Source of the DNA: Acidimicrobiales bacterium
GTDB lineage: Bacteria; Actinomycetota; Acidimicrobiia; Acidimicrobiales; MedAcidi-G1
NCBI GenBank assembly: GCA_028823445.1
Contig: JAPKBH010000009.1
Coordinates: 1 to 63,073, forward strand
DNA: 63,073 nt
Direction of reading: 5' to 3'
This document shows positions 28,110-44,860 of the stretch, piece by piece. Within the stretch, counting starts at the first letter, position 1. Each line of letters begins with the position of its first letter. The position numbers were made by a program, and so were the translations under genes. The notes beneath the pieces are model-generated. The model ran no database searches. It was not told where the DNA came from and saw only the letters and a list, made by a program, of their open reading frames with translations.

Positions 28110-28132
28110 TTGTCACACGCTAGTGGTACCTT
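28110..28132 (+). promoter_or_regulatory. ftsK promoter: TTGTCACAC-N8-TACCTT
   Basis: TTGTCACAC at 28110-28118, 8 bp, then TACCTT at 28127-28132. The -10 ends 6 nt before GTG 28139, so the transcript would be leaderless. The same element with the same N8 spacing occurs at recA. Confidence 0.6.
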
Positions 28133-28138
28133 TAAACC

Positions 28139-30541
28139 GTGGTAAACCCTAAATCTTCGCGCCCCCCGGGGTCAAAAAAACCAGGCAAAACCGGGTCTCG
28201 GTCGACCAAAAGCAGTATCGCTGCGCAGCCCAACCGAAACCCGTTGTCTCGCCGCATGTTGCAGGCCGCTTTTGGGGGCCGAGGCGACGAAATGATGGGC
28301 TTGTTCTTGATCTTGGTGGGCCTGTTGGGTGTGCTTTCTTTGTATTTCGACAAAGCTGGGGTAGTGGGCCGGGGGTTAGAAAACGGCTTGGGGTGGTCTA
28401 TTGGGTTGACCAAAATGGTGCTTCCGGCAGCCATGGTGGGTCTGGGTTTCGCCATGTTTCAAGAGCGCCACGAAGTTGACGAACTCTCTAAACGCATCCC
28501 GGTCGGGCTTGGCTTGGCACTTATTAGCGTTACCGGTTTGCTGCATATGGCGCAGGGTCGCCCCGGTTTAAACGATGGCAGCGCTGCGTTGGGTAAAGCG
28601 GGTGGATTGCTGGGTCTGGTAGTTGGCGGCCCGTTAGAGGCTGCGGTGAGCCCTTGGGGAGCGGTTCCTGTTTTGTTGGCCTTGGGCTTTGTGGGGGTGG
28701 CCATCGTTACTGGGGTCACGGTGCGCGAAGCGGCTTCGGGCGTTATGAAGGTTTTGCGCCCCATGGGGCGGGTTATTCTCGACGGATTTAAAGACATTTT
28801 TACGGCTCCCGATGAACCAACCCCCACCATCAACTTGCCCGAATCAACTGATCCTCGGCCCGCTCCTCCAGAACCCGAACCAGAGCCTGAGGCTGCGCCA
28901 GAGCCCGCTCCGAAAGCGAAGAAACGTAAAGGCAAAGTGGCGCCCATAATGGGGGGCGAACAGCTCACCATTGAGTTGGGCCCTGCGGTGGCAGATTCTC
29001 CTTGGCGCTTGCCGTCTACCAAACTCTTGTCGCGAAGTGTGGCTCAGGACATAGATGCCAAAGCAGTCGAAGCACGCGGTGTCCGGTTGCAAGAAGCATT
29101 GGCTGCCCACGGGGTAGAAACCCGCCTTACCGATATGACGGTTGGCCCGACGGTGACCCGCTACGCCTTACAGTTGGGCGAGGGGGTCAAGGTGGCCCGC
29201 GTTACCAGCCTGAACAAAGACATCGCTTACGCTTTGGCGGCTGCCGATGTGCGTATTTTGGCCCCGATTCCTGGCCAGCAGGCCATTGGTATCGAGGTGC
29301 CGAACGACGACCGCGAGGTAGTGTCGCTCGGCGATATTTTGACCTCAAACGAAGCGGCCAAAGCCCGCCACCCCTTAGAAGTCGGGGTCGGGCGAGACAT
29401 CAAGGGCCAGTCGGTCATGGTGAACTTGGCCACCATGCCCCACATGCTTATTGCCGGGGCCACCGGCGCCGGAAAGTCTTCGTGCATTAACTCGTTGGTG
29501 ACCTCGATTTTGATGCGCAGCACCCCTGACCAGGTGCGCATGATTCTTATTGATCCAAAACGAGTTGAAATGGGCCAGTACGAAGGGGTGCCGCATTTGC
29601 TGACTGCTCCGGTGACCGACCCTCGTAAAGCAGCCAACGCTTTGAGTTGGGCGGTAAAAGAAATGGAACGCCGTTACGACCTGTTGTCAACTACTGGTTT
29701 CCGTGACATCACCGGTTATAACGCGTCTTATGATCGCGGCGATTTGCAGGCTCCACTGGGTCTGACCGACGATGAAGACGAGCCGGTGGTCTACCAGCGG
29801 TTGCCATTCATTTTGGTGGTGGTTGACGAACTTGCCGACCTCATGATGGTGGCGGCCCGCGACGTTGAAGATTCCATTTGCCGACTCGCTCAAATGGCTC
29901 GTGCGGTGGGTATTCACTTGGTAGTGGCGACGCAGCGACCGTCGGTCAACGTGATCACCGGGGTTATTAAAGCCAACATCCCGGCTCGCCTCGCTTTTGC
30001 TGTTTCTAGCTTGGCGGATAGTCGAGTTATTTTGGATCAACCAGGCGCTGAGCGCTTGGTAGGGAAGGGTGACATGTTGTTGCTGAGCCCCAGTTCGGGC
30101 ACGCCGCAACGTATTCAAGGGGCTTGGGTCGACGAAGAAGAGGTGCGCCAGGTGGTGGCGATTTGGGTCAAACAGGTCAAGGCTTTGGGCGACAATGCGC
30201 CGAGCGACGACGAAGCCGAAGTCACCGGCAAACTATCTTCTGGAGGTGGGGTTGCCTCATCAGGTGGGGACAGTATTACCGACAGCATCACTGCGAGCCC
30301 GCCTTCGGGGGGCAACAGCGACGATGAGCTTTTTGACCAAGCCCGCAAGTTGGTGGTGACTACCCAGTTGGGTTCTACCTCTATGTTGCAACGCAAGTTA
30401 CGGGTGGGGTTTGCTCGAGCAGGCCGGCTGATGGACTTGATGGAAGAGTCCGGGGTGGTGGGCCCTTCCACGGGCTCTAAGGCTCGAGAGGTTTTGATCT
30501 CTGAAGAAGATCTTGAAAACCTGATGGCCCAGGGCCTGTAA
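28139..30541 (+). CDS. ftsK: DNA translocase FtsK/SpoIIIE family
   Basis: Pumps DNA through the septum during division. 800 residues. A basic N-terminal stretch is followed by about four membrane helices (~50-190), a Pro/Glu-rich linker (~235-275), the alpha and beta motor domains with Walker A GATGAGKSS (~440) and Walker B VVVDELADLMM, then a C-terminal gamma winged helix (DQARKLVVTTQLGSTSMLQRKL). The start is GTG 28139. Only 63 bp separate it from rnj. Confidence 0.95.
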   Translation: MVNPKSSRPPGSKKPGKTGSRSTKSSIAAQPNRNPLSRRMLQAAFGGRGDEMMGLFLILVGLLGVLSLYFDKAGVVGRGLENGLGWSIGLTKMVLPAAMVGLGFAMFQERHEVDELSKRIPVGLGLALISVTGLLHMAQGRPGLNDGSAALGKAGGLLGLVVGGPLEAAVSPWGAVPVLLALGFVGVAIVTGVTVREAASGVMKVLRPMGRVILDGFKDIFTAPDEPTPTINLPESTDPRPAPPEPEPEPEAAPEPAPKAKKRKGKVAPIMGGEQLTIELGPAVADSPWRLPSTKLLSRSVAQDIDAKAVEARGVRLQEALAAHGVETRLTDMTVGPTVTRYALQLGEGVKVARVTSLNKDIAYALAAADVRILAPIPGQQAIGIEVPNDDREVVSLGDILTSNEAAKARHPLEVGVGRDIKGQSVMVNLATMPHMLIAGATGAGKSSCINSLVTSILMRSTPDQVRMILIDPKRVEMGQYEGVPHLLTAPVTDPRKAANALSWAVKEMERRYDLLSTTGFRDITGYNASYDRGDLQAPLGLTDDEDEPVVYQRLPFILVVVDELADLMMVAARDVEDSICRLAQMARAVGIHLVVATQRPSVNVITGVIKANIPARLAFAVSSLADSRVILDQPGAERLVGKGDMLLLSPSSGTPQRIQGAWVDEEEVRQVVAIWVKQVKALGDNAPSDDEAEVTGKLSSGGGVASSGGDSITDSITASPPSGGNSDDELFDQARKLVVTTQLGSTSMLQRKLRVGFARAGRLMDLMEESGVVGPSTGSKAREVLISEEDLENLMAQGL

Positions 30542-30553
30542 GGCTAGTTTCGC

Positions 30554-31486
30554 ATGGCTGTTCTTGTGTTGTTGTTGGGTTTAACGGTGTTGGCGTTGGC
30601 GGCTGACCAGTTTGTGTTGGGGGCGTCACGCTTAGCGCACCAAATGAATGTGCCCACCGTGGTTATGGGGGCGTTAATTCTGGGTTTCGGCACCAGCGCC
30701 CCGGAGTTTGTGGTTTCCACGTGGGCGGCTCGGCAAGGCGAAGTTAACCTCGGTTTGGGCAACATTGTGGGCTCAAACGTGGCTAACTTGACTTTGGTTT
30801 TGGGGGTAGCGGCGTTTATCCGCCCTATTACCGTGCCCACCGGCACCTTGTCCCGAGGGTTTTTGTCATTGGGTGGGGTGCTTATTTTCGCTGCTTTGGT
30901 GCAAAACGAAATGACCAACGGGCAAGGCTTAGTGTTGTTAGCGGTGTTTGTAATGTCCATGGTGTTGATGGTGCGTTTGCACACTGCTGAGGAAACCCCG
31001 CCGCCGGCTATTCCGGAAAGTAAGCGTTCCATTAGCCCTTGGTTGCGGGCCGGGGCCGGTTTGTTGGGCACTATGGCGGCTGCCCAAGTGGTGGTCGGTG
31101 CTTCTACGGACCTGATTGAAACACTCAACCTCTCGGGTGGGTTTGTGGGGTTTTCTATGGTGGCTTTGGGTACTTCTTTGCCTGAGTTGGTCACCGTGGG
31201 GGCTGCGGCTCGACGCAATGAGACGGGTTTGATTTTGGGCAACTTGCTGGGCTCAAACTTGTTTAACAGCTTGGCGGTGGGCGCCGGGTTGTTCTTGGCT
31301 GGCTCGGGAACGTTCAGCGATGTGTTTATGCAAACTAGGGGAGTGGCGGCCATGTTGGCGGTGGCTCTTTTGGCATTGTTGCTGATGGCGACTGGCCGGG
31401 TGGTGGGTCGTCGTGAAGGCGCAGTTTTGGTGCTGACTTATTTGGGCGTACTGGCTTACTTGGGCTTTAACGCTGCTTTGACGTAA
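30554..31486 (+). CDS. Sodium/calcium-type cation antiporter (CaCA family)
   Basis: Integral membrane exchanger, 310 residues and about ten helices in two inverted halves. The alpha-1 repeat has GFGTSAPEFVVS and GNIVGSNVANL; the alpha-2 repeat has ALGTSLPELVTV and GNLLGSNLFNS. The acidic residues in both repeats bind the cation. It resembles YrbG; the true ion is not determined. It follows ftsK by 12 bp. Confidence 0.9.
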   Translation: MAVLVLLLGLTVLALAADQFVLGASRLAHQMNVPTVVMGALILGFGTSAPEFVVSTWAARQGEVNLGLGNIVGSNVANLTLVLGVAAFIRPITVPTGTLSRGFLSLGGVLIFAALVQNEMTNGQGLVLLAVFVMSMVLMVRLHTAEETPPPAIPESKRSISPWLRAGAGLLGTMAAAQVVVGASTDLIETLNLSGGFVGFSMVALGTSLPELVTVGAAARRNETGLILGNLLGSNLFNSLAVGAGLFLAGSGTFSDVFMQTRGVAAMLAVALLALLLMATGRVVGRREGAVLVLTYLGVLAYLGFNAALT

Positions 31487-31512
31487 TCCGGGGGTCGAGG
31501 CCAGTTGGGCCG

Positions 31513-31518
31513 TAACCT
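31513..31518 (+). promoter_or_regulatory. Possible -10 (TAACCT) for rimO
   Basis: TAACCT ends 8 nt before ATG 31527, slightly longer than the usual gap of 6-7 nt. A nearly leaderless transcript is possible. Confidence 0.35.
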
Positions 31519-31526
31519 AAAGAATC

Positions 31527-32771
31527 ATGACTGCTTCTACCTACCATTTGGTGACCTTGGGTTGCCCAAAAAATGAGGTGGATTCCGACAAGTTGGTGGG
31601 CTTGTTCACCCAAGACGGCATGCAACCCACCGATCGTCCTGAAGATGCGGACCTAATCGTAGTGAATACCTGCGCTTTTATCGAAGAGGCTCGCCAGGAG
31701 TCCATCGACACGGTGTTGGCCCTTGATGATTTGCGGCAAGCCGGAGCCAAACTAGTGGTGACTGGTTGTTTGGCCGAGCGTTACGGCGATGATCTGGCGG
31801 CTTCGTTGCCTGAGGTGGATCGGGTAGCGGGGTTTGGGGTGCCGGTTACTTTGGGCCAGCGAACATCAGGGCAGGCGCTGCCTTCTTTCGACTTGTTGAA
31901 CTTGCCTCGGCCGGCTTCGGAGCGTCCGTGGGCTTACGTAAAAATCGCTGAGGGTTGCGATCGGGCTTGCGGGTTTTGTGCCATTCCGAGTTTTCGGGGG
32001 CCGCAACGCAGCCGAACCATTGCTGACATTGTGGCTGAAACGCAGGCTTTGCAAGTACATGAGGTGGTGTTGGTGGCTCAAGACCTGGCGGCTTTTGGCC
32101 GAGATCAAGGAGTGGGGGAGCGGGCCATCGTGCCGTTGGTTAAAGCGGTGTCTGAGGTAGCGCAGCGGGTGCGTTTGTTGTACCTCTACCCGTCGGACCT
32201 TAGCGACGAGTTGATTGACACTATTTGTGCTACCGGGGTGCCTTATTTTGATCTCTCGTTGCAGCATGTGTCGCCGCCGTTGTTGCGGGCCATGAAGCGC
32301 TGGGGCAACGGCGAAAAGTTTACGGAGCGCATGAAGGTTATTCGTCAGCGTGAGCCGGAGGCGGTGTTTCGCTCGAACTTTATTGTGGGTTACCCGGGCG
32401 AAACCGAAGAAGACCAGGATGCTTTGTTGGCTTTTATTGAAGAAGCCCAACTGGATTGGTGCGGTTTTTTCTCGTATTCGGCAGAGGAGGGTACTTATGC
32501 GGCGGGCTTGGACGGGGCACCGGAGGCGGAGTTGGTAGCGGAGCGTTTGCGTGAACTCTCGGAGGTGCAAGATGCTATTACGGCCCAGCGGCGAGATGCG
32601 TTGATCGGCCAGCCGGTAGAGGTTTTGGTGGATGAACCGGGGGTGGGGCGCACTTGGCGTGAGGCGCCAGAAATTGACGGGATCGTGCAGGTAAACGAGG
32701 ATCTCCCCGTGGGTACGGTGGCAACGGTTACGGTTACTGGTGCGTTGGGCCCCGACTTGGAGACAGCATGA
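31527..32771 (+). CDS. rimO: Ribosomal protein S12 methylthiotransferase RimO
   Basis: Radical-SAM enzyme adding a methylthio group to an Asp of S12. 414 residues. The N-terminal cluster domain has Cys in TLGCPKNEVDSD, VVNTCAF and VTGCLAERY. The radical SAM motif is CDRACGFCAIPSFRGPQRSR. A C-terminal TRAM domain follows. LGCPKN rather than YGCQMN separates it from its paralogue miaB at 36390. It overlaps pgsA by 4 bp. Confidence 0.94.
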   Translation: MTASTYHLVTLGCPKNEVDSDKLVGLFTQDGMQPTDRPEDADLIVVNTCAFIEEARQESIDTVLALDDLRQAGAKLVVTGCLAERYGDDLAASLPEVDRVAGFGVPVTLGQRTSGQALPSFDLLNLPRPASERPWAYVKIAEGCDRACGFCAIPSFRGPQRSRTIADIVAETQALQVHEVVLVAQDLAAFGRDQGVGERAIVPLVKAVSEVAQRVRLLYLYPSDLSDELIDTICATGVPYFDLSLQHVSPPLLRAMKRWGNGEKFTERMKVIRQREPEAVFRSNFIVGYPGETEEDQDALLAFIEEAQLDWCGFFSYSAEEGTYAAGLDGAPEAELVAERLRELSEVQDAITAQRRDALIGQPVEVLVDEPGVGRTWREAPEIDGIVQVNEDLPVGTVATVTVTGALGPDLETA

Positions 32772-33340
32772 ATCTTTTTAAGCATTTTGGCACGGTGGTG
32801 AGCCCGCCGAACCTAGTGACCTTGTCGCGGCTGGCGCTTTCTCCGGTGTTGTTTGTCATTATTTTGGAAGCCCAGGACCGTCGTGGCGTGTCGTGGGGTG
32901 CTTTTTTGCTGGGGTTCATTCTTGGGCTCACCGATTACATGGACGGCTCGTTGGCTCGTCGAGCGGGCAAGGTCAGCCGATGGGGAGCTTTTTTAGATCC
33001 CCTTGCCGACAAGGTGGCGGTCATTGGGGCGGCGGTTTGTTTGGTGGCGGTAGATCGCTACACGTGGCTGCCGGTGATTTTGTTGGCCGTGCGTGAGGTG
33101 CTGATTACTTTTTATCGTTTGTGGTTTGCCCGCCAAGGGTTGGCAGTGCCGGCCCGCAAGTCGGCTAAAGCAAAAACTACGGTGCAGGGTTTGGCGCTCT
33201 TGGTAGCGGTTATCCCGTTGTTTGAAAACTTTGATTGGTTGGTGGAGGCCACCTTGTGGGCGGCGGTGGTGTTGACGCTGGTCACCGGATTGCAGTATTT
33301 GCTCGATGGCCGTAACGCCACCAACACCACAGGGGAGTAG
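32768..33340 (+). CDS. pgsA: CDP-alcohol phosphatidyltransferase, probable phosphatidylglycerophosphate synthase
   Basis: Membrane enzyme using CDP-diacylglycerol from CdsA. 190 residues. The full CDP-alcohol transferase motif is present: DGSLARRAGKVSRWGAFLD then PLAD (DG-x2-AR-x8-G-x3-D-x3-D). Helices surround it. Glycerol 3-phosphate as acceptor is inferred from similarity and from the pgsA-cinA-recA order common in bacteria. Confidence 0.88.
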   Translation: MNLFKHFGTVVSPPNLVTLSRLALSPVLFVIILEAQDRRGVSWGAFLLGFILGLTDYMDGSLARRAGKVSRWGAFLDPLADKVAVIGAAVCLVAVDRYTWLPVILLAVREVLITFYRLWFARQGLAVPARKSAKAKTTVQGLALLVAVIPLFENFDWLVEATLWAAVVLTLVTGLQYLLDGRNATNTTGE

Positions 33341-33346
33341 GTCGCG

Positions 33347-34585
33347 GTGCGCTGTGAAATCGTGGCCGTGGGTACAGAGTTGCTGTTGGGCCAGATTGTG
33401 GACACCAACTCGGCGTGGATTGGCGAGCAGTTGGCGTTAGCGGGCATTGATTGTTTGCGCCATGCGGCGGTGGGCGACAATGGGCAACGCATTCATGATG
33501 CGCTTTCTGAAGCCCTGGCCCGGGCCGATGCAGTAATCGTCACCGGCGGTTTGGGCCCTACCCAAGATGACATCACCCGCGAGGTGATTGCTGAGGTGAT
33601 GGGGGTCGGGTTGGAGCGTCAAGATTTTTTGGTGGAGCGGATTGAAAAAAGGTTTGCGGGCCGTGGCCGGCGTATGCCGGAGAATAATTTGCGTCAAGCC
33701 GATGTGCCGGTGGGGGCGGTGCCTATTGAACAAATGCCAGGAACGGCACCAGGGTTGGTGTGCCCGGTGGGCGACAAGGTTATTTATGCCGTCCCGGGGG
33801 TGCCCAGCGAAATGCGTGACATGGTGAACGGCACGGTGTTGCCTGATTTGATTTTGCGTTCGGGTTCTACGTCGGTTATCCGGTCTCGGGTGCTGCGTAC
33901 TTGGGGCGAGTCGGAGTCAGGTTTGGCCGAGTTGTTGGCTGAAGAAATTGTGCGCCTTGATGCTACGGGCGGCCCTACGTTGGCTTTTTTGGCCAGCGGT
34001 ATAGAGGGGTTGAAGGTACGGATTACCGCTAAGGGCGACACCGAGGAAGACACTTTGGCCATGTTGGCCGAAGAAGAGGTTCGGGTGCGGGCCATTATCG
34101 GTTCGGTGATTTTTGGGGTGGATGAGCAAAATATGGAGTCGGTGGTGTTGGACCTTTTGGTGGCTCAGGGCTTAACCATGGCTACGGCGGAGTCCATGAC
34201 CGGCGGCATGATTGGAGCGCGCTTAACTGAGGTGCCGGGGGCGAGCCGGGCTTTTGTGGGTTCGGTGGTGTCTTATGCCAATAGCGTGAAACATGATTTG
34301 TTGGGGGTGCCCGAGGGGCCGGTGGTTAGTGAGGCTGCGGTGCGAGCTATGGCCGCTGGGGTGTGTGAGGCAACCGGTGCGGATGTGTCGGTGGCGGTTA
34401 CTGGGGTGGCTGGCCCAGAGGCTCAAGAGGGCGTGGAACCGGGTGTGGTGTGGATAGCCACCAGCGTTGATGGGGTGACCGAAGCGGTGCAGGTGCGTTT
34501 TCCGTATGGCCGCACCATGACCAGGCAACTCACGGTTATTTCGGCGCTCAACATGCTGCGCCGGCGTTTAATTGACCGGGGTTAG
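33347..34585 (+). CDS. cinA: CinA-family nicotinamide-nucleotide amidohydrolase
   Basis: 412 residues in two domains. The N-terminal one is MoaB/MogA-like (EIVAVGTELLLGQIVDTNS, TGGLGPTQDD). The C-terminal one is the CinA deamidase (MATAESMTGGMIGARLTEVPGASRAFVGSVVSYAN), which recycles NMN. The GTG start at 33347 follows pgsA by 6 bp. cinA next to recA is conserved, although here msrB lies between them on the other strand. Confidence 0.93.
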   Translation: MRCEIVAVGTELLLGQIVDTNSAWIGEQLALAGIDCLRHAAVGDNGQRIHDALSEALARADAVIVTGGLGPTQDDITREVIAEVMGVGLERQDFLVERIEKRFAGRGRRMPENNLRQADVPVGAVPIEQMPGTAPGLVCPVGDKVIYAVPGVPSEMRDMVNGTVLPDLILRSGSTSVIRSRVLRTWGESESGLAELLAEEIVRLDATGGPTLAFLASGIEGLKVRITAKGDTEEDTLAMLAEEEVRVRAIIGSVIFGVDEQNMESVVLDLLVAQGLTMATAESMTGGMIGARLTEVPGASRAFVGSVVSYANSVKHDLLGVPEGPVVSEAAVRAMAAGVCEATGADVSVAVTGVAGPEAQEGVEPGVVWIATSVDGVTEAVQVRFPYGRTMTRQLTVISALNMLRRRLIDRG

Positions 34586-34595
34586 CGGTTAGTTT

Positions 34596-35000
34596 TTATT
34601 CGTCGGTTTCGAGGCGGATGGAAGCCGAGTTGATGCAGTAGCGGTCGCCGGTGGGGGTGGGGCCGTCGGGGAACACGTGACCCAGGTGGGCGCCGCAGTT
34701 GTGACACAAGGTTTCGGTGCGTAGGTACCCGGTGCTGCGGTCTTCGTTGGTGTCGACAATGTCGGGGCTTAATGGGGCATCAAAACTGGGCCACCCGCAG
34801 TCGGCGTCAAACTTAGTGCTGCTCGCAAAGAGGGCCTCGTCGCACACAATGCAGCGGTAGGTCCCGGCTCGGTTTTCGTCCCAGTAAATGCCGGTAAAAG
34901 GAGCTTCGGTGCCTGCCTCTTGAGTGCAAGCAAATTGCTGGCCGGTAAGCCGGTTGCGTAGTTGTTCGGTGGTTTCTTTGGGGGAGGGGGTGTCGTTCAT
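34596..35000 (-). CDS. msrB: Peptide methionine (R)-S-oxide reductase
   Basis: Repairs methionine R-sulfoxide. 134 residues from ATG at 35000. Zinc is held by CIVCD and CHNCG pairs; the substrate region has DCGWPSF and LGHVFPDGP; the catalytic Cys is in [13 protein letters not shown] two codons upstream is in frame, but the -10 hexamer 6 nt before the ATG supports 35000. It is monocistronic, convergent with cinA. Confidence 0.95.
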
Positions 35001-35006
35001 GGCCAA

Positions 35007-35012
35007 AACCTA
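35007..35012 (-). promoter_or_regulatory. Putative leaderless -10 (TAGGTT, minus strand) for msrB
   Basis: On the minus strand TAGGTT ends 6 nt before the ATG at 35000. Confidence 0.5.
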
Positions 35013-35057
35013 CCTGTTTTAAAGAGTAAAGAAAAGAATTTGGCGAAATGCTTGCAA

Positions 35058-35071
35058 CGAACACCTGTTCG
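35058..35071 (+). promoter_or_regulatory. LexA box upstream of recA
   Basis: CGAACACCTGTTCG is a perfect CGAAC-N4-GTTCG palindrome, the SOS box type of Actinomycetota and Bacillota. It lies in the msrB-recA gap, about 30 bp upstream of the TTGTCACAC promoter element. Confidence 0.85.
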
Positions 35072-35102
35072 CAATTACGCTGTTGTTATTCGCAAGGGCA
35101 CA

Positions 35103-35125
35103 TTGTCACACCCCTCTACTAAGTT
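35103..35125 (+). promoter_or_regulatory. recA promoter element: TTGTCACAC-N8-TAAGTT
   Basis: TTGTCACAC (35103-35111) and TAAGTT (35120-35125) are 8 bp apart. Mycobacterial PafBC promoters (RecA-NDp) read TTGTCRGTG-N8-TAnnnT, so spacing and the first six bases match while the last three differ. The 14 bases TGTCACACCCCTCT recur exactly before the LysM gene. Confidence 0.55.
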
Positions 35126-35176
35126 TCTCTACGTAACAACTTCTCTTACCCCTCTACAAAAATAACGGAGTTAATC

Positions 35177-36310
35177 ATGGCAAAGAAAATGAACAAACCA
35201 CTTAAGACAGTTCCAGAAATTGGAGCAGATGCCGTAGGCCGCGGCAAGGCCCTCGACCTGGCCTTGAATCAGATTGAAAAGCAGTTCGGTACCGGTGCCG
35301 TCATGAAGATGGGCGACAAAGCCTCCATGGCTATCGAGACCGTCCCCACTGGCGCTTTGGCCCTCGACCTGGCTTTGGGTGTCGGTGGGTTGCCTCGGGG
35401 CCGTGTGGTAGAAATTTTCGGACCAGAAGGTTCAGGTAAAACCACCCTCGCCATCCACGTGGTGGCCGAGGCCCAACGCAACGGTGGCGTCTGTGCCTAC
35501 ATCGATGCAGAACACGCCATGGACCCGGTCTATGCCGCGGCCATCGGGGTCGACGTTGACTCCTTGCTCATTTCACAACCCGACACTGGTGAACAGGCAT
35601 TAGAAATTGTTGACATGCTGGTTCGTTCCGGTGCGTTAGATGTGATTGTTGTTGACTCGGTGGCCGCTTTGACCCCTCGGGCAGAAATTGAAGGCGACAT
35701 GGGCGACACCCACGTAGGCCTGCAAGCTCGTTTGATGTCGCAGGCTTTACGTAAGTTGGCAGCCAACCTAAACAAGTCCAACACCATCTGTATTTTCATC
35801 AACCAGTTGCGTGAAAAAATTGGCGTCATGTTCGGTTCTCCAGAGACCACCCCTGGTGGTCGGGCGCTGAAGTTTTACTCTTCGGTTCGTTTAGACATTC
35901 GTCGCATCGAAGCGTTGAAAGATGGTTTAGACATCGTGGGTAACCGCACTCGGGTCAAGGTGGTGAAGAACAAGGTAGCTCCGCCCTTTAAGCAAGCTGA
36001 GTTCGACATCATGTACGGCCAAGGTATTAGCCGAGAAGGTTCGGTTATTGACCTTGGGGTCGACCTCGACATCGTCAAGAAGTCTGGTGCTTGGTACACC
36101 TACGAAGGCGAGCAACTTGGCCAGGGTCGAGAAAACGCTAAGAAGTTCCTCTTTGATAACCCTGAGGTGATGATGGAAATCACTGACCGGGTGTGGCGTG
36201 AGGTGACTCCTGAAGTTGAAGAAGAAGAACCGGTTATGGAAGCAGAGGATGGAGCGGCAACCGATGAGTTCACCGCTGCTGACGATGTGCCCATCGCTAT
36301 TCAGGACTAA
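35177..36310 (+). CDS. recA: Recombinase RecA
   Basis: ATP-dependent strand exchange and co-protease for LexA. 377 residues with the P-loop GPEGSGKTT at 82-90, the Walker B region [19 protein letters not shown] and the L2-adjacent [27 protein letters not shown]. The C-terminus is an acidic tail of ~40 residues. ACGGAG precedes ATG 35177. No intein is present. It is preceded by a LexA box and a second damage-type promoter element. Confidence 0.98.
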
Positions 36311-36319
36311 CGCTGGCCG

Positions 36320-37877: not shown

Positions 37878-37879
37878 TC

Positions 37880-38800
37880 ATGGTTGTCGCCAACGGCCAT
37901 TTAGTGATTCTGGGCACCACTGCTTCAGGTAAGTCTTCGTTAGCTTTTGCCTTGGCGCAACTGCGCCCAAACGTTGAGTTGGTTTCCATGGATTCCATGG
38001 CGCTTTATTGCCATATGAACATCGGTACCGCCACCCCTACGACAGAAGAGCAGGCGGCAGTGCCGCACCATTTAATTGATCTGGTGCCGCCCACCGAGGA
38101 GTTCACGGTGTCGGAATTTCAATCTGCCGCCCAGCAGGCCATTGCTGATATAGAAACACGGGGTAAGCGGGCAGTGTTGGTGGGCGGTACGGGCTTACAC
38201 GTTCGCTCAGTGGTCGACGATCTTGACATCCCGGGGCAGTTTCCTGAAACACGGGCTGAGTTAGAAACCGAAAGCGACACCGGGGTGTTGTATCAACGCT
38301 TGTTGACCCTTGATCCGCTGGCGGCCGGCCGTATGGAGCCCTCTAACCGGCGCCGGGTATTGCGGGCCTTGGAGGTCACGGTGGGGGCTGGACGGCCTTT
38401 TTCTGCCTTTGGCCCCGGCATAGATGCTTACCCGCCGACCCCCTTTACCCAGATCGGTCTGCGGCTCAGTCGAGAGCTCGTAGACCGGCGCATTGCCGAG
38501 CGCTACCAAAAACAACTCGATGAAGGTTTTCTCGAAGAAGTGGCTGCGGTCATGACTTTGGGTCCTTCTCGAACCGCTAAGCGAGCGTTGGGCTATCGCC
38601 AGTTGGCGGCACACCTTGATGGCCTCTGCACGCTCGAAGATGCGGTGGCCGAAGCGGTGCGTGATACCTGCCGCTTTGCTCGCCGTCAAGAACGCTGGTT
38701 TCGCCGCGACCCAAGAATCGAATGGCTTGATGTGCAAGAAAGTTCGCAAGAAGTGCTGGAAAAAGTGCTCTTGCGTTTTGACGAGTTGGCAAATCATTAA
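37880..38800 (+). CDS. miaA: tRNA dimethylallyltransferase
   Basis: Transfers a dimethylallyl group from DMAPP (a MEP pathway product) to A37 of tRNA. 306 residues with P-loop GTTASGKSS, VSMDSMALYCHMNIGTA and GGTGLHVRSVVDDL, then the ALGYRQL motif near the C-terminus. It starts 2 bp after miaB, so the two modifying steps are coexpressed. Confidence 0.95.
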   Translation: MVVANGHLVILGTTASGKSSLAFALAQLRPNVELVSMDSMALYCHMNIGTATPTTEEQAAVPHHLIDLVPPTEEFTVSEFQSAAQQAIADIETRGKRAVLVGGTGLHVRSVVDDLDIPGQFPETRAELETESDTGVLYQRLLTLDPLAAGRMEPSNRRRVLRALEVTVGAGRPFSAFGPGIDAYPPTPFTQIGLRLSRELVDRRIAERYQKQLDEGFLEEVAAVMTLGPSRTAKRALGYRQLAAHLDGLCTLEDAVAEAVRDTCRFARRQERWFRRDPRIEWLDVQESSQEVLEKVLLRFDELANH

Positions 38801-38842
38801 TCAACCACCCCAGAGGCTCGCCCAGAGGCCAGACTGTTAACT

Positions 38843-39640
38843 ATGCAGATCAGCCGCTACCACGGGTTAGGCAACGACTTCTTGATTGCCTTTGCCGAAA
38901 CGATCCCCAGTCAGGCGCCCGCTTTGGCGCGCCAGTTTTGTGATCGCTCCAGCCCGTGGGGAGCCGACGGCTTAGTGTTCGGCACCCCCGGTACCCAAAA
39001 CCAATACATGTTTTCTCTATTTAACGCCGACGGCGGTCGGGCCGAAGTAAGCGGAAACGGTTTGGCGTGCTTTGGCCACGCCTTGGCGAAAAAGCTTTCC
39101 GTTGATGATCTTTCTCTTGAAGTTGACACCACAGTCGGGCCGCGCTCCATAAAGGTAAACGGCGTTGCGAACCAAGATCAGGTAATGGCCACCGTGGGTA
39201 TGGGTCAGCCTCAAAAGGGCCCGGATTTTGCGGGGTTAAACCTTGACCTCGTGGGCTTCGGTGGGGGCCGTATGGATTCCGTAGATTTAGGTAACCCGCA
39301 TTTGGTGATCGAAGTTGACAACATAGATTCGGTTGATCTTGCGCAGGTGGGGCCAGCGGTAGAGGCCTTTTTTATGCCCACCGGTTGCAACGTGCATATT
39401 GTGCAAGCCCAAAACGCTAACGCCCTAAGCATGCGCCCCTGGGAGCGTGGTGTAGGGCTGACCGAGGCCTGTGGCACCGGGGCCACAGCTACTGCTTTGG
39501 TGGCGCACCGTTGGGGGTTAGTAGGCGGCGAGGTAGCGGTGTCTATGCCTGGCGGGGTGGCCAACATCACCGTAGAAGGCGAACCGACCTACCGTTGCCG
39601 GTCTACATTTGAAACAACCTTTGAGGTAGCTGATGGGTGA
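38843..39640 (+). CDS. dapF: Diaminopimelate epimerase, first active-site Cys replaced by Ser
   Basis: Interconverts LL- and meso-diaminopimelate with two Cys acting as acid and base. 265 residues starting with the typical HGLGNDFL. The second catalytic Cys is present as Cys210 in EACGTGATA. At the first site the usual CGNG reads SGNGLAC, so Ser70 replaces Cys, and Cys76 lies six residues on. Activity may use Ser70 or Cys76; I cannot tell. It overlaps hflX by 8 bp. Confidence 0.92.
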   Translation: MQISRYHGLGNDFLIAFAETIPSQAPALARQFCDRSSPWGADGLVFGTPGTQNQYMFSLFNADGGRAEVSGNGLACFGHALAKKLSVDDLSLEVDTTVGPRSIKVNGVANQDQVMATVGMGQPQKGPDFAGLNLDLVGFGGGRMDSVDLGNPHLVIEVDNIDSVDLAQVGPAVEAFFMPTGCNVHIVQAQNANALSMRPWERGVGLTEACGTGATATALVAHRWGLVGGEVAVSMPGGVANITVEGEPTYRCRSTFETTFEVADG

Positions 39641-41006
39641 CCAACCAACAGAAGAAACCGAAGAGCTTGATGAAGCGTTCGAAGGCGAACACCGGGGAGC
39701 GTTTGGCGAGTTCGGTGGCGAAAGCAGCGGTTTTATCGACCGGGCTTTTCGTGAGCGCATTGTGTTGGCTTCGGTAACTTTGTCGGGCGACAACATCGAA
39801 GAAGCCGAAGCGTCTTTAGACGAACTGGCTCGCCTGGTTGACACGGCAGGGGCCGACCCGGTGGCTCGGGTACAGCAAAACCGTTTATCCCCCGACCGAG
39901 CAACCTATGTGGGGAGCGGTAAAGCCGAAGAGATTCGCCAAATATCTGAGTCCCTAGATGCCGACACCGTGGTTTTTGATAACGAGTTGTCTCCGGCCCA
40001 ACAAGGTAATTTAGAAAAAATATTGAAACGCAGTGCTCTGGATCGCACAGCGGTCATCTTGGATATTTTCGCGCAGAACGCTTCGAGCCCGGAAGGTAAA
40101 GCGCAAGTCGAACTGGCTCAGTTGCGTTACCGGTTGCCGCGGTTGCGTCGTTCGGGACGTACTTTTTCTCAGCAAGCGGGCGGTATCGGCACCCGTGGCC
40201 CGGGTGAAACGCAACTCGAGGTAGACCGCCGTCGGCTTATGCGTCGCATCACTAAATTGGAAGGCAACTTAAAACAGTTACGCAAAAATCGGGCCACCCA
40301 ATCGAAGTCTCGCAAACGAACCAGCAACCGTGCGGTGGCCATCGTGGGTTACACCAACGCCGGAAAATCCACCTTGTTAAATGCGCTCACCGATGCCGGG
40401 GTGCTAGTAGAAGACCGTTTGTTTGCTACCTTGGATGCCACCACCCGACGCCTTGCCTTGCCCGGGGGCGAGGCCGTGTTTTTGACCGACACGGTGGGTT
40501 TTGTGCGCAAACTTCCCCATCAACTAGTGGAAGCCTTCACCTCAACGCTTGATGTGGTGGTTGATGCGGATCTTTTATTGCATCTCGTGGATTCCTCAGA
40601 CCCCGACCCTTCCGGCAGCATCAACGCCGTGCGCACCGTGTTAAAAGAAATTGGTGCCGACACGGTGCCGGAGGTTTTTGTCTTTAATAAAGCGGACCTT
40701 GACCCAGTGGCTGCTCAACAGTTGAAGGCCCGCGAACCGGGTTCGGTGGTGTGTTCGGCCACCACCGGCGAAGGCCTCGAAGATCTCTTGGAAGTGGTGG
40801 GTTCGCACCTTCGGCGTTTGACCCGCACCGTCGACCTGTTGATCCCTTTTGACCGCGGAGATATTTTGGCTCAAGTGCATCGGGAAGGCGAGGTAGTTGA
40901 CGAGACCAGCGGCAGCCAAGGCTGGCTGATACGAGCTCGTTTTGAAGAAGCTTCGGTGGGCCGGTTAGAAGAGTTCATCGACCCAGCAACAAAGACAAGC
41001 TCATGA
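39633..41006 (+). CDS. hflX: GTPase HflX
   Basis: Ribosome-splitting GTPase induced by stress. 457 residues: an acidic N-terminal extension (~40), the HflX domain (DPVARVQQNRLSPDRATYVGSGKAEEI, FDNELSPAQQGNLEK), a coiled region with GPGETQLEVDRRR, then the GTPase with G1 GYTNAGKST, G3 DTVGF and G4 NKAD. It lies between dapF and dapC with overlaps on both sides, as in other actinobacteria where dapF-hflX are linked. Confidence 0.95.
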   Translation: MGDQPTEETEELDEAFEGEHRGAFGEFGGESSGFIDRAFRERIVLASVTLSGDNIEEAEASLDELARLVDTAGADPVARVQQNRLSPDRATYVGSGKAEEIRQISESLDADTVVFDNELSPAQQGNLEKILKRSALDRTAVILDIFAQNASSPEGKAQVELAQLRYRLPRLRRSGRTFSQQAGGIGTRGPGETQLEVDRRRLMRRITKLEGNLKQLRKNRATQSKSRKRTSNRAVAIVGYTNAGKSTLLNALTDAGVLVEDRLFATLDATTRRLALPGGEAVFLTDTVGFVRKLPHQLVEAFTSTLDVVVDADLLLHLVDSSDPDPSGSINAVRTVLKEIGADTVPEVFVFNKADLDPVAAQQLKAREPGSVVCSATTGEGLEDLLEVVGSHLRRLTRTVDLLIPFDRGDILAQVHREGEVVDETSGSQGWLIRARFEEASVGRLEEFIDPATKTSS

Positions 41007-42124
41007 ATCGGTCGTCGGGTTTTGTGCCGCCTCCCATGCCTTTTGATGGGCAGAGCGCTTTACGTCAACAGGCAGAACTGTTGCCCGGTGGGGCCGTAGA
41101 TTTGTCTATCGGTACGCCGGTAGACCCCGTACCGGACCTCATCGCTGCGGTGCTGGCCGACCCAGACCCGGCCCGGCCTTACCCCACGTTGACTGGCCGA
41201 CGCATTATTGAAAACGCCATTGTCTCTTGGTTGGATAGCCGGCTAAATGTTTCCGTAACCCCAGCCGAAATAGGTACCTGCATCGGTACCAAAGAGTTAG
41301 TGGCGGGGTTGCCTCATCTGTTGAAACTCCGTGACCCTTCGCGGGACACTATTTTGTACCCCGAAGTGGCTTACCCTTCGTACGCCATGGGGGCAGCGCT
41401 AGCCGGGTGTCGTGCCGTGCCGGTGGCTATGGACGATCAGTGGCGGCTAGATGTTTCGAGCATTGACCCGCAAGATGCCCAACGGGCACTGGCTTTGTGG
41501 GTAAATACCCCGGGCAATCCGGCTGGCGGCCTTGACGATCTTGAAGAAGTTGCCGAATGGGGCCGCAGCAACGAGGTGCCGGTCTTTAGCGACGAGTGCT
41601 ACGTGGAGTTCACTTGGGATGGCCCTGCTCGTTCAATTTTGCATTATGGCCATCAAGGGGTGGTGGCGGTGCATTCGTTATCTAAGCGCTCCAATTTGGC
41701 GGGTTTGCGTTTTGGGTTTTACGCCGGTGATCAAGACCTGGTGAGTTATTTGCGAGAGACCCGCCGTCACCAGGGGTTAATGGTTCCGGGCCCTGCTCAA
41801 GCGGCGGCGGTGGTGGCTTTGGGCGACCAAGACCACGTGGCGGTGCAGCATCAGCGTTATTTGAACCGTTTGAACTTGTTGATTGAGGTGTTGGGGCAGA
41901 TGGGTGTGGAGGCTTGCTTGCCGGGGGGTTCGTTTTACCTGTGGGTGGCCGCACCGCAAGGAGATGCGGCGGGGTTAATTAACCGGTTGGCTCAAGAACT
42001 CGGGGTGGTCGCCACCTTGGGTGAAATCTACGGCGAACGTGGGGCAGGTTATGTTCGCTTGGCTGCGGTGGCCACCGACGAACGCTTGGCTTTGGTGGCT
42101 CAACGGGCCTCAGCCTTAAGTTAA
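41003..42124 (+). CDS. dapC: Succinyldiaminopimelate transaminase
   Basis: Class I PLP aminotransferase of the succinylase lysine branch. 373 residues. The PLP Lys is in HSLSKRSNLAGLRFGF. NTPGNPAGG and the C-terminal YVRLA (substrate Arg) fit the fold. The specific role is inferred from linkage: it lies directly before dapD and dapE. It overlaps hflX by 4 bp. Confidence 0.88.
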   Translation: MNRSSGFVPPPMPFDGQSALRQQAELLPGGAVDLSIGTPVDPVPDLIAAVLADPDPARPYPTLTGRRIIENAIVSWLDSRLNVSVTPAEIGTCIGTKELVAGLPHLLKLRDPSRDTILYPEVAYPSYAMGAALAGCRAVPVAMDDQWRLDVSSIDPQDAQRALALWVNTPGNPAGGLDDLEEVAEWGRSNEVPVFSDECYVEFTWDGPARSILHYGHQGVVAVHSLSKRSNLAGLRFGFYAGDQDLVSYLRETRRHQGLMVPGPAQAAAVVALGDQDHVAVQHQRYLNRLNLLIEVLGQMGVEACLPGGSFYLWVAAPQGDAAGLINRLAQELGVVATLGEIYGERGAGYVRLAAVATDERLALVAQRASALS

Positions 42125-42156
42125 ACAAATTGAACCCGTGGGGAGGGGCCGGAGGG

Positions 42157-42162
42157 TAGTCT
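42157..42162 (+). promoter_or_regulatory. Putative leaderless -10 (TAGTCT) for dapD
   Basis: TAGTCT ends 6 nt before ATG 42169 in the 44-bp gap after dapC. Confidence 0.5.
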
Positions 42163-42168
42163 CTGCCC

Positions 42169-42990
42169 ATGGCAGAACTCCAAGCACAAATAGAAGAACT
42201 CTGGGCTAATCGAGAAACGTTAGAGACTCAAGACACTGACGCCAATGCGATCATCAATGAGGCCGTGGGTTTGTTGGATTCCGGTGGCGCTCGGGTAGCC
42301 GAGCCGGGTCCTGATGAGGTGGTGGTCAATCAGTGGCTCAAACACGCCATCTTGTTGTTGTTTAAACAAGCACAAATGTCCACTATCGAGACACCGCCTT
42401 TTGAGTACGCCGACAAAATCCCGCTAAAAACTGACTTTGCCGCTCAAGGGGTGCGGGTGGTGCCCGGGGCGATTGCCCGGTGGGGCAGTTACTTGGCGCC
42501 CGGGGTCATCATGATGCCCAGTTTTGTCAACATCGGAGCATGGGTAGGAGAAAACACCATGGTCGATACCTGGGCCACCGTCGGGTCGTGTGCCCAAATT
42601 GGCCGCAACGTGCACCTTTCTGGTGGGGTAGGTATCGGTGGGGTGTTAGAGCCCGCCAACGCGGTGCCGGTAGTTATTGGCGACGAATGTTTAATTGGGA
42701 GTCGCTGCATTGTGGCCGAAGGTGCCCGAGTGGGCGAAGGCGTAGTACTGGGTGCGGGGGCGGTGCTGACCGCTTCTATTCCGGTTATCGATGCCGAAAC
42801 CGGCGAAGAAATTAGCCGAGGGGAGATCCCGCCGTGGTGCGTGGCGGTGCAGTCCACCCGGTCACGAGAGTTTGCCGGCGGCACCTTCGGTCTGCCTTGC
42901 GTGTTGGTCATTAAACGCCTCACCGAGGGGGAGCGCCACGATAAGTCGGCCCTTAACGATGTGCTGCGTAGCCACGGCGTGAGCACCTGA
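42169..42990 (+). CDS. dapD: Tetrahydrodipicolinate N-succinyltransferase
   Basis: Succinylates tetrahydrodipicolinate using succinyl-CoA. 273 residues: a helical N-terminal domain followed by a left-handed beta helix of hexapeptide repeats (from VRVVPGAIARWGSYLAPGVIMMPS through GENTMVDTWATVGSCAQIG to GDECLIGSRCIVAEGA). Length and motifs follow the type first known from proteobacteria rather than the mycobacterial form. Confidence 0.94.
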   Translation: MAELQAQIEELWANRETLETQDTDANAIINEAVGLLDSGGARVAEPGPDEVVVNQWLKHAILLLFKQAQMSTIETPPFEYADKIPLKTDFAAQGVRVVPGAIARWGSYLAPGVIMMPSFVNIGAWVGENTMVDTWATVGSCAQIGRNVHLSGGVGIGGVLEPANAVPVVIGDECLIGSRCIVAEGARVGEGVVLGAGAVLTASIPVIDAETGEEISRGEIPPWCVAVQSTRSREFAGGTFGLPCVLVIKRLTEGERHDKSALNDVLRSHGVST

Positions 42991-42994
42991 ACAG

Positions 42995-44053
42995 ATGGCC
43001 GACCTTTTAGCGCTTACTGCTCAACTGGTGGACATCCCGTCGGTTAGTTTCAACGAAGAAGATTTGGTGGCTTTTTTAGAAACCGAACTACGGGTTATCG
43101 GCGGGCTAACCGTTGACCGAGTGGGCGACAACTTGGTGGCCCGCACCACATTGGGGCGCCAGCATCGCCTAATTTTGGCTGGCCACACCGACACCGTGCC
43201 GGGCCAACAGGGCTCACGCATCGAAGGCGACACCTTGTGGGGTTTGGGCAGCACCGATATGAAAAGTGGGTTGGCGGTCATGTTGGAACTGGCCCGCACC
43301 GTGACTGAACCAGCGGTAGATGTCACCTACGTGTTCTATGCCTGCGAAGAAGTGGCCAGCGAACACAATGGTTTGCAACAACTTTTTACGGAGGCCCCCG
43401 AGTTATTGACGGGCGATGTAGCGATTTTGGGTGAACCCACCGACGGCATTATTGAGGCGGGTTGCCAGGGCACTATGCGTCTTGAGGTAACGCTGGGCGG
43501 GGTGCGGTCGCATTCGGCTCGCCCTTGGATGGGCCGTAACGCTATTCACCGGGCCGGGCCGTTGTTGGCCGCAGTGGCCGGTTATCAACACCGGGAACCT
43601 GTAGTGGATGGCTGCACTTATCGAGAGGCTTTGCAGGTGGTAAATATTTCGGGTGGGGTGGCCGGCAACGTGGTGCCCGATGCAGTGACTTTGTTGATTA
43701 ATCATCGCTATGCCCCCGACCGCTCAGCTGAACAAGCCGAAGCACATGTGCGTTCGGTGTTGGCCCCATTCTTAGAAGATGGTGACCAGGTGACGTTGGT
43801 GAATAATTCTCCGGCGGCCGCCCCCGGCTTAAATCACCCACTGCTAAGCGCATTGATTGGCCGCAACGATTTACCAGTTGAGGCCAAACTGGGGTGGACC
43901 GATGTGGCGTTTTTTTCTGGCCATGGGGTGCCAGCGGTTAACTTCGGCCCGGGGGACGCCACGCTGGCCCACACCAAAGATGAGCGGGTAGAACGAGCTC
44001 CGTTAGAAGCGACCTATGCCGCTTTGGTAGATTTGCTAACTCGAGGGGTTTAA
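42995..44053 (+). CDS. dapE: Succinyl-diaminopimelate desuccinylase
   Basis: Zinc peptidase-family (M20) enzyme releasing LL-diaminopimelate. 352 residues. Metal ligands are His64 and the base Asp66 in LAGHTDTVPG, Asp in GSTDMKSG, and the Glu pair in ACEEVAS. A dimerisation domain is in the middle (~170-280). It starts 4 bp after dapD and converges with lexA, sharing TTAA at the 3' ends. Confidence 0.94.
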   Translation: MADLLALTAQLVDIPSVSFNEEDLVAFLETELRVIGGLTVDRVGDNLVARTTLGRQHRLILAGHTDTVPGQQGSRIEGDTLWGLGSTDMKSGLAVMLELARTVTEPAVDVTYVFYACEEVASEHNGLQQLFTEAPELLTGDVAILGEPTDGIIEAGCQGTMRLEVTLGGVRSHSARPWMGRNAIHRAGPLLAAVAGYQHREPVVDGCTYREALQVVNISGGVAGNVVPDAVTLLINHRYAPDRSAEQAEAHVRSVLAPFLEDGDQVTLVNNSPAAAPGLNHPLLSALIGRNDLPVEAKLGWTDVAFFSGHGVPAVNFGPGDATLAHTKDERVERAPLEATYAALVDLLTRGV

Positions 44054-44679
44054 ACCTTGCGCATGACCGTGACCACTCGACCAAAGATGGTTACTTCGTG
44101 AGCGGGAAAACGCATTTCTTCAAAGGCCGGGTTTGACGGTATAAGTACTACCTGGTCGTCTTCCAACCGAAAGTGTTTGATGGTGGATTCATCGCCGGGA
44201 ATGCCGGCCACCACCAGGTCGCCGTTGTTGGCGGTTTTTTGAACATTAACGACGACAAAGTCACCGTCGAATATCCCGGCTTCAATCATAGATTCTCCGC
44301 GTACTCGAAGCATGAAGAGTTGGCCGTCGCCGGTGAACTCTGAAGGGAGAGCGATGGACTCTTCAATATTTTCGTGAGCCAGCACGTCGGTGCCGGCGGC
44401 CACGTCACCCACCAAGGGCACGTGTTGCACGGTGCCTTCGGACATGGGGGCACCGCTGTAGGGGTCGCGGCAAACTTTTAAAGCTCGTGGCCGGCTGGGG
44501 TCACGCTGCAAATAACTTTTTTCTTGCAAAGTAGAAAGGTGAGCATGGACCGTCGAAGGGGAGGTTAAACCAACGGCGGCACCAATTTCGCGCACGGTCG
44601 GTGGGAAACCTTTGTGACGTGTTTGGGAGTCAATGAACTCCAAAATCTGTTTTTGACGGTCTGTTAGGCCTGTATTCAT
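44050..44679 (-). CDS. lexA: SOS repressor LexA
   Basis: Represses DNA-damage genes until RecA triggers its self-cleavage. 209 residues from ATG 44679 (AAAGGA upstream). The N-terminal winged helix holds PTVREIGAAVGLTSPSTVHAHL. The cleavage site is Ala95-Gly96; the catalytic dyad is Ser130 in RGESMIEAG and Lys168 in STIKHF. Longer in-frame starts run through the operator region and are unlikely. It represses itself through the boxes at 44706-44782. Confidence 0.97.
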   Translation of the reverse strand: MNTGLTDRQKQILEFIDSQTRHKGFPPTVREIGAAVGLTSPSTVHAHLSTLQEKSYLQRDPSRPRALKVCRDPYSGAPMSEGTVQHVPLVGDVAAGTDVLAHENIEESIALPSEFTGDGQLFMLRVRGESMIEAGIFDGDFVVVNVQKTANNGDLVVAGIPGDESTIKHFRLEDDQVVLIPSNPAFEEMRFPAHEVTIFGRVVTVMRKV

Positions 44680-44705
44680 AGGGTTTTTCCTTTTGGGGTT
44701 GACAA

Positions 44706-44782
44706 CGAACGTATGTTCGGTAGAGTGTAGTCTATGACCGAACGCCTGTTCTCCGCACATATGTTCGCCGAACAAGCGTTCC
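44706..44782. promoter_or_regulatory. Cluster of four LexA boxes between lexA and the LysM gene
   Basis: Boxes: CGAACGTATGTTCG (44706-44719, perfect), CGAACGCCTGTTCT (44739-44752, one mismatch), CGCACATATGTTCG (44754-44767, one mismatch) and CGAACAAGCGTTCC (44769-44782, one mismatch). The last three start exactly 15 bp apart. They sit between two divergent genes and can control both. Confidence 0.85.
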
Positions 44783-44837
44783 ATGTCAAGGACCCTCTTG
44801 AAAAAAAGGCCTTTTGGGCTTTGGGGTCTTTTCGAGA

Positions 44838-44860
44838 ATGTCACACCCCTCTGAAAGGAT
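44838..44860 (+). promoter_or_regulatory. LysM-gene element: ATGTCACAC-N8-AAGGAT
   Basis: TGTCACACCCCTCT at 44839-44852 is identical to bases in the recA promoter. A degenerate -10 (AAGGAT, 44855-44860) at the N8 spacing ends 7 nt before ATG 44868. The AAAGGA here can also serve as ribosome binding site, so both readings are possible. Confidence 0.4.

Follow-up and report, generated by a model that had tools for sequence, protein, structure and literature searches.

Three short elements in a 63,073 nt stretch of DNA from an Acidimicrobiales bacterium (assembly GCA_028823445.1, contig JAPKBH010000009.1, positions 1–63,073; this whole stretch is the window) are probably promoters of the PafBC type, read by the organism's own PafB–PafC pair as a LexA-independent DNA damage switch for recA, ftsK and the gene of a small LysM protein. 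The element is a predicted lineage-specific form of the PafBC promoter, for which a testable reading rule can be given; the triplet behind the TGTCR core is CAC, where the mycobacterial literature has GTG. At least three lineage spellings exist (CAC, GTG and GAC), and CAC is common to other families of the phylum as well.

The core TGTCACAC occurs exactly three times in the window, always on the + strand, at 28111, 35104 and 44839. The full 23-base matches are TTGTCACACGCTAGTGGTACCTT (28110–28132), TTGTCACACCCCTCTACTAAGTT (35103–35125) and ATGTCACACCCCTCTGAAAGGAT (44838–44860). The first, a CAC-form -26 element with its -10 hexamer (TTGTCACAC-N8-TACCTT, an exact match in the genome searches), precedes ftsK (28139–30541, + strand), which encodes a DNA translocase (Pfam FtsK_SpoIIIE, FtsK_alpha, FtsK_gamma and FtsK_4TM) and has its GTG start codon 6 nt past the hexamer, so placed that the transcript is predicted to be leaderless. 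The second (TTGTCACAC-N8-TAAGTT) precedes recA (35177–36310, + strand; Pfam RecA, 4.8e-141), the ATG of which lies 51 nt past the hexamer; the same layout is found upstream of recA in relatives. The third, ATGTCACAC-N8-AAGGAT, also returned by the pattern searches, points away from lexA and towards the LysM gene (44868–45233, + strand), which starts with an ATG 7 nt past the hexamer and encodes 121 amino acids with a hydrophobic stretch followed by LysM (Pfam LysM, 4.7e-8). The first-pass annotation of this DNA had reported the three sites, the absence of a fourth, the genes behind them and 14 bases common to the recA and LysM sites (TGTCACACCCCTCT), and all of this was confirmed, including the FtsK domains and the divergence of the LysM gene from lexA. 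The TAnnnT that its heading gives for all three sites holds for ftsK and recA but not for the LysM site, which has AAGGAT in the -10 position. Likewise, the broad Mycobacterium tuberculosis consensus TGTC(GG/AG/AC)-N10-TA-N3-T is fitted exactly at 28110 and 35103, while 44838 lacks the T of the TA.

Within the window alone these sites cannot be told from coincidence. Three copies of TGTCACAC were reached in 31 of 100 window shuffles, which is within chance, and three matches to the full pattern with up to two mismatches in 55 of 100; window-only statistics were therefore rejected as uninformative about the motif. A chance origin of the three sites, for which the shuffles speak, is nevertheless scarcely credible given the excess over a reversed pattern genome- and order-wide, the leaderless placement of the sites, the functions of their targets and the recurrence of the recA site upstream of recA in relatives.

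The assembly comprises 1.93 Mb in 69 contigs and is 95% complete; the reversed pattern served as control. Allowing up to one mismatch, TTGTCACAC-N8-TANNNT gave 18 matches against 1 in the control, and YTGTCRCAC-N8-TANNNT without mismatch gave 11 against 0, so that the genome search proposed by the first-pass annotation did reveal an excess, and it is this excess that makes the sites distinguishable from chance, unlike the window alone. A looser pattern, NTGTCRCACC-N7-TANNNT with one mismatch, gave 26 matches against 10; several of the extra matches lie inside open frames and resemble noise, and two precede DNA-metabolism genes. The GTG form has no match in this genome against 11 for CAC, and the strict consensus TTGTCRGTG-N8-TAnnnT is thus unmatched.

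In 17 of the 18 sites found with one mismatch allowed, the -10 hexamer keeps A at position 2 and T at position 6; the one exception (L009) has no convincing gene behind it. Sixteen of the 18 precede an open frame, 12 of them with a start 6 or 7 bases past the hexamer when read by hand (+6/+7), and one site (L017) overlaps its own candidate long frame. An ATG or GTG opening at least 40 codons stands at +6/+7 behind 8 of the 11 exact sites, compared with 18 of 533 TAnnnT hexamers in the window (p = 2.5e-10). In four relatives (G016, G045, G091 and G177), from which 30 of 40 exact sites were obtained as loci, 22 of the 30 have such a start, though many of these genes are paralogues. Other genes have leaders, with the start of recA at +51 and that of rpsF-ssb at +147. 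The +6/+7 spacing fits leaderless transcripts, with the start of transcription predicted from it, and if the transcripts are leaderless then TTGTCACAC would be located at about -26.

Genes for repair, recombination and replication form the largest known group of targets, as would be expected of a PafBC regulon, and the motif is not equally common at unrelated genes. By Pfam, the CAC sites precede genes for FtsK, RecA, a UvrD helicase, NAD-dependent DNA ligase (LigA) and RmuC, together with DnaX (start at +8) and ribosomal protein S6 followed by single-stranded DNA-binding protein (rpsF-ssb behind one site). Further Pfam-annotated targets are a UPF0102/YraN protein, a Pribosyltran protein whose cysteine-rich start makes it look ComF-like on inspection, and, at a distance of 189 bases from its site, a staphylococcal-nuclease homologue; the one-mismatch sites of the looser pattern add a second UvrD-type helicase and an RNase_T-type exonuclease. 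The ComF-like gene, yraN, ssb and recA suggested a pure competence regulon; this was rejected as the main reading because ligA, uvrD, dnaX, ftsK and a transposase gene share the promoter and PafB accounts for it. Five small open frames at +6/+7 (L004, L007, L008, L013 and L014) have no Pfam match above the cut-off. Four of these (L007, L008, L013 and L014; 62–101 amino acids) lie directly behind CAC promoters, and the L007 product has a weak likeness, below the cut-off, to an Rv0078B-type antitoxin, with a nucleotidyltransferase-like frame (by eye) following it. The transposase gene (L010) is of the Y1 (REP-type) family and starts 6 bases behind its CAC promoter, an instance of a mobile gene with a predicted damage promoter.

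Only two WYL matches are present in the assembly. They are adjacent, encode PafB (301 amino acids) and PafC (327 amino acids), and follow directly behind the Pup ligase gene (pafA) in one run. Both proteins match chains of the Mycobacterium smegmatis RNA polymerase–PafBC structures 7p5x and 9fnd and of the Arthrobacter aurescens PafBC structure 6sj9. HTH_PafC, WYL, WCX and Pup_ligase scored above cut-off, with the helix-turn-helix of PafB resting on the alignment to 7p5x and 6sj9 only. The search for pafB and pafC homologues thus returned the pair, and the genome does hold a PafBC-type regulator. The nearest named records to RecA are from an Acidimicrobiales metagenome-assembled genome (MAG; 86%) and from Aquihabitans (79%), which makes Acidimicrobiia the probable source of the window.

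In M. smegmatis, PafBC is activated by single-stranded DNA bound by its WYL domains; the helix-turn-helix of PafB engages the -26 motif and that of PafC binds domain 4 of the housekeeping sigma factor, a mode termed sigma adaptation (PMC11804915; the mechanism is also given in PMC8223512 and PMC8151990, as far as the available text of these sources goes). By homology with mycobacteria, activation of the present pair would proceed likewise. DNA damage would yield single-stranded DNA that is bound by the WYL domains and renders PafBC active; the PafB helix-turn-helix would dock on the CAC -26 element and PafC on sigma domain 4, and recA, ftsK and the lexA-divergent LysM gene would be switched on without LexA. 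The likeness to mycobacterial PafBC (RecA-NDp, P1) promoters extends to the TGTCR core, the eight bases to TAnnnT, a recA promoter with an additional LexA box, a regulator pair beside the Pup ligase gene and a regulon of repair genes; the difference is that this genome uses CAC and not GTG. The reading of the sites as mycobacterial PafBC promoters with CAC for GTG is supported, also by the TGTCAC variant listed for M. tuberculosis (TGTC[GG/AG/AC]-N10-TA-N3-T, with the same spacing; PMC8151990, available text). There it is one of three variants of a degenerate motif, whereas here it is in genome- and order-wide excess and is often extended to CACCC.

The element tracks its putative regulator across genomes. 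In the window's own order, TGTCACACC-N7-TANNNT gave 418 matches in 81 of 99 genomes against 3 in the reversed control, and a PafB match was found in 95 of these 99. In the 22 genomes of the class, CAC gave 71 matches against 5 and GTG 5 against 5. Across the phylum, the same 246 genomes yielded 266 CAC matches (control 60), 507 GTG (57) and 226 GAC (45). With all three spellings taken together, the 167 genomes with a PafB match (threshold E 1e-6, queried with the PafB of this genome) hold 925 matches against 92, and the 79 genomes without one hold 74 against 70. No other line of evidence speaks as strongly for PafBC keeping the element as this restriction of a clear excess to PafB-bearing genomes, which is correlational. 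Single genomes depart from it: G040 (L216, family f21), for example, has 4 CAC matches and a GTG element before recA with no PafB match at E 1e-6, possibly owing to an assembly gap.

The slot upstream of recA gives a second view. Of 229 genomes with a RecA match, 90 were examined upstream of the gene, and 67 of these carry nTGTC-N-triplet-N8-TAnnnT, against 1 of 90 when the same stretches are reversed; where PafB was also examined, the slot is filled in 61 of 68. Among named RecA records (49 of 80 loci examined upstream), the GTG form precedes recA in Streptomyces, Nocardia and Rhodococcus and CAC in Aquihabitans and two MAGs, with TTGTCGGACCCC in one Mycobacterium and TTGTCAGACCC in a Gordonia. 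In 20 genomes of the class the slot reads CAC in 8, CAG in 4, and GAC, GTG and TCG in one each. The slot of G123 is CAC. A triplet strictly fixed for each lineage was rejected, as recA sites with GAC, TAC, CAG and CCC occur. In the Lys-type families f26, f53 and f39 (L251, L248, L252, L264, L260, L241 and L257), named here for the PafB residue treated below, TGTCA followed by CCC, CTC, CTG or TCG is joined to TATAAT upstream of recA, possibly a further spelling. A record titled as a Bifidobacterium breve MAG (L024) has a RecA that ranks among Acidimicrobiia (76%) and CAC before recA; its title looks wrong.

These surveys bear on whether the element belongs instead to another activator or to an alternative sigma factor of the extracytoplasmic function (ECF) type. 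TGTCAC resembles some ECF-type -35 elements. Taking TTGTCA as a -35 element, however, leaves a spacer of 11, which is too short for a -35/-10 pair and right for a -26 element; presence of the element follows PafB, with no clear excess in the 79 genomes lacking a match; the same recA slot bears the GTG form in the named Streptomyces, Nocardia and Rhodococcus; and the assembly has no WYL match apart from PafB and PafC. An owner other than PafBC is thus improbable, and the alternative sigma factor was rejected on spacing and dependence on PafB.

Several observations do weigh against PafBC promoters as the explanation, beyond the shuffle counts of the window. No TGTCACACC-N7-TANNNT is found in 18 of the 99 order genomes and no YTGTCRCAC-N8-TANNNT in 7 of the 22 class genomes. 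A TGTC-type element is missing before recA in 5 of the 20 class genomes, of which four carry a one-base variant of the core (TGTGACACC in G031, G113, where the -10 is weak, and G156; TGGCACACC in G166). The phylum counts come from unequal patterns, with a pyrimidine required before TGTC for CAC and GTG, and any base there with a C behind for GAC; a few families also weigh heavily, one (f29) supplying 277 of the 507 GTG matches. A second, LexA-independent damage regulon, as had been proposed, is nonetheless supported as a prediction by the PafBC pair, the placement of the sites, their targets and the PafB-dependent excess.

The spelling co-varies with one residue of PafB. In A. aurescens PafB, R44 and R48 are outward-facing, strictly conserved arginines of the recognition helix, and changing both equivalents in M. 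smegmatis gives the deletion phenotype (PMC6789036, in the text available). Directly before the first of these arginines, the M. smegmatis protein has Ser, that of A. aurescens has Gly, and the PafB of this genome has Arg (R42). This residue was tabulated for 110 PafBs from the 167 phylum genomes with a match. Genomes with Arg (48) hold 167 CAC matches (control 13), 15 GTG (10) and 13 GAC (4); those with Lys (36) hold 19 CAC (7), 28 GTG (4) and 81 GAC (6). The GTG form prevails with Asn (6 genomes; CAC 9 against 5, GTG 258 against 4, GAC 55 against 1), with Ser (7 genomes; CAC 6 against 4, GTG 107 against 4, GAC 23 against 2) and with Asp, Glu and Gly (6 genomes together; CAC 3, GTG 33, GAC 9). 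Gln (3 genomes) comes with CAC 1, GTG 2 (control 1) and GAC 12, His (3 genomes) with CAC 12, GTG 3 and GAC 5 (control 1), and Ala (1 genome) with CAC 1. A dominant form could be assigned in 70 genomes, the other 40 of the 110 having fewer than 3 matches or a tie. It is CAC in 27 Arg genomes and GTG in 1; GAC in 13 Lys genomes, CAC in 3 and GTG in 2; GAC in all 3 Gln genomes; CAC in 2 His genomes and GAC in 1; and GTG in 18 of 18 genomes with Asn, Ser, Asp, Glu or Gly, although the Gly case is only 3 against 2 and 2. Fisher tests, which ignore ancestry, give p under 1e-12. Ranked by shuffle-corrected mutual information with the form, this column comes first of the 305 in the alignment (0.919; next 0.875). 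In 28 further PafBs of the order, outside the table, the residue is Arg in 26 and His in 2. The co-variation suggests that R42 helps to set how the triplet after TGTCR is read: R42 would favour CAC, while Lys and Gln would go with GAC and Asn, Ser, Asp and Glu with GTG. A class genome with His at this position (G177; L140) has 7 CAC and 3 GTG matches, both with no control matches, and its PafB is a possible dual reader.

It is a real if somewhat doubtful possibility that the promoters belong to PafBC but that the triplet is loosely read, CAC and GTG differing by neutral drift and shared ancestry with no role for the PafB residue. M. tuberculosis tolerates TGTCGG, TGTCAG and TGTCAC (PMC8151990, available text), and genomes whose PafB has Lys, Gln, His, Asn or Ser all include some with GAC sites. 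The rule has exceptions, which tell against it. Lys accompanies CAC in family f47 and G036 and GTG in G006 and G007; Arg comes with few CAC in family f20 and, in G081, with 3 GTG and no CAC; His is found with either CAC or GAC. One His genome (G134) has 4 GAC and no CAC matches by the unequal patterns, yet 2 TGTCACACC sites by the looser one, which makes its contrast with its sister G102 (Arg; CAC 2, GTG 1, GAC 1) weak. On the PafB tree (an unrooted tree from a quick search, with the helix left out of the alignment and some long branches) only 8 changes of form are seen. Independent pairs that test Arg against CAC number 3 on well-supported branches and 5 on all, no sign test is significant, and the GTG side provides just 1 pair. 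On the other hand, none of the other 305 columns ranks above the residue, which sits in the recognition helix, Gln accompanies GAC at two separate places on the tree, and the pairs that differ follow the rule on average (1.8 with it, 0.0 against, 1.2 without difference). Independent switches are few, and the link between residue and spelling may also reflect shared ancestry.

The strong GTG users form one clade (SH-aLRT support 99), which includes the mainly GAC-using Gln genome G204. This clade branches from within the Arg and Lys sequences, so GTG looks younger than CAC or another C-ending form, as far as an unrooted tree can suggest.

R44 itself may be a second contact that sets the spelling, a lead at present and not a result. 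It is replaced by Gly, Gln or Ala in 8 of the 110 PafBs, all from the window's order. In three genomes without R44 (G031, G113 and G156; L131, L130, L136, L359, L365, L367 and L368), the recA slot holds TGTGACACC in place of TGTCACACC, and G031 has 9 TGTGACACC-N7-TANNNT sites against 0 in the control, plus 3 TGTCACACC sites. G091 (Gly) and G220 (Gln), however, keep TGTCACACC at recA, and TGTGACACC gives just 17 matches against 4 over the 99 order genomes.

In part of the class the CAC promoter is found repeatedly before one gene family. In the four relatives named above (L307–L336), 17 of the 30 proteins behind exact CAC sites form a single similarity cluster, and 16 of these 17 loci have their start at +6/+7. 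Seven cluster members were scanned, and DUF222 and/or HNH endonuclease matches at E 0.001 were found in six, one of them below the family cut-off. In G016, all nine loci examined (of 19 sites) belong to the cluster. It looks as if this DUF222/HNH family multiplies together with its predicted damage promoter; in M. tuberculosis, HNH genes of the 13E12 family are discussed as LexA targets (PMC4181829, available text). A LAGLIDADG endonuclease gene (L309) has the same CAC promoter. Taken jointly, a one-residue PafB code (Arg to CAC; Lys and Gln to GAC; Asn, Ser, Asp and Glu to GTG), an older and wider CAC/Arg state in Actinomycetota, a GTG form of the mycobacterial literature derived in one clade, and an HNH family that spread with a damage promoter in part of the class make up a picture that is plausible but tentative.

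The region between lexA and the LysM gene has a published counterpart in the lexA–Rv2719c (ChiZ) arrangement of M. tuberculosis. In the window, lexA lies on the - strand (44050–44679; start taken as the ATG at 44679, longest frame to 44844) and matches Pfam LexA_DNA_bind, from residue 58 of the long frame, and Peptidase_S24. Four SOS-box matches on the + strand separate it from the LysM gene, one exact (44706–44719) and three with one mismatch (44739–44752, 44754–44767 and 44769–44782). An exact SOS (LexA) box of recA, CGAACACCTGTTCG, is located at 35058–35071 on the + strand, and a LexA-type palindrome is found upstream of recA in many relatives too; over the whole window, 7 SOS-box matches with up to one mismatch compare with 2.85 expected. 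With SOS-box matches at both recA and the LysM gene, each of these genes would respond to two damage pathways. The available text on M. tuberculosis assigns one SOS box to lexA and three others to the neighbouring operon, and there the PafBC box beside lexA points away from it and serves the rv2719c operon, not lexA (PMC8151990). The likeness therefore comprises a small LysM gene divergent from lexA (PMC8151990, PMC4181829), several SOS boxes and one PafBC-type box aimed at the LysM gene. By layout (small, with a membrane stretch seen by eye and one LysM, beside lexA), the LysM protein appears ChiZ/YneA-like. A difference is that nrdR, named with Rv2719c in one operon of M. tuberculosis (PMC4181829, available text), was not found among the frames scanned behind the LysM gene; next to that gene lies an open frame in convergent orientation, followed by a class II (B12-dependent) ribonucleotide reductase (46335–49121).

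Other WYL activators tied to genotoxic stress are SiwR (PMC10693628) and DriD (PMC11804915, PMC12340889). SiwR likewise acts at -26, where its promoter has a conserved GGA triplet, but the one target known for it is an operon with an imperfect palindrome (PMC10693628), and both SiwR and DriD are described as homodimers in the text available of these sources. Neither a CAC lineage variant nor the link to a PafB residue was found in the searched literature, which leaves most subscription papers outside its coverage; among the matches listed for the motif letters in print were, by title, primers and unrelated work.

The LexA-independent damage response has been described chiefly in mycobacteria. 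If the present reading is correct, the same activator would run such a response across much of the phylum in several promoter spellings, and searches with the published GTG motif would miss promoters in other lineages, as in this genome (GTG 0, CAC 11). The co-variation would reduce the reading of a -26 element by a sigma-adapting activator to a matter of one residue and three bases, for which a concrete and cheap test is available. In a host group known largely from metagenome assemblies, ftsK and the genes for DNA ligase, UvrD, DnaX, RmuC and SSB, together with a ComF-like gene, would be tied to one predicted regulon.

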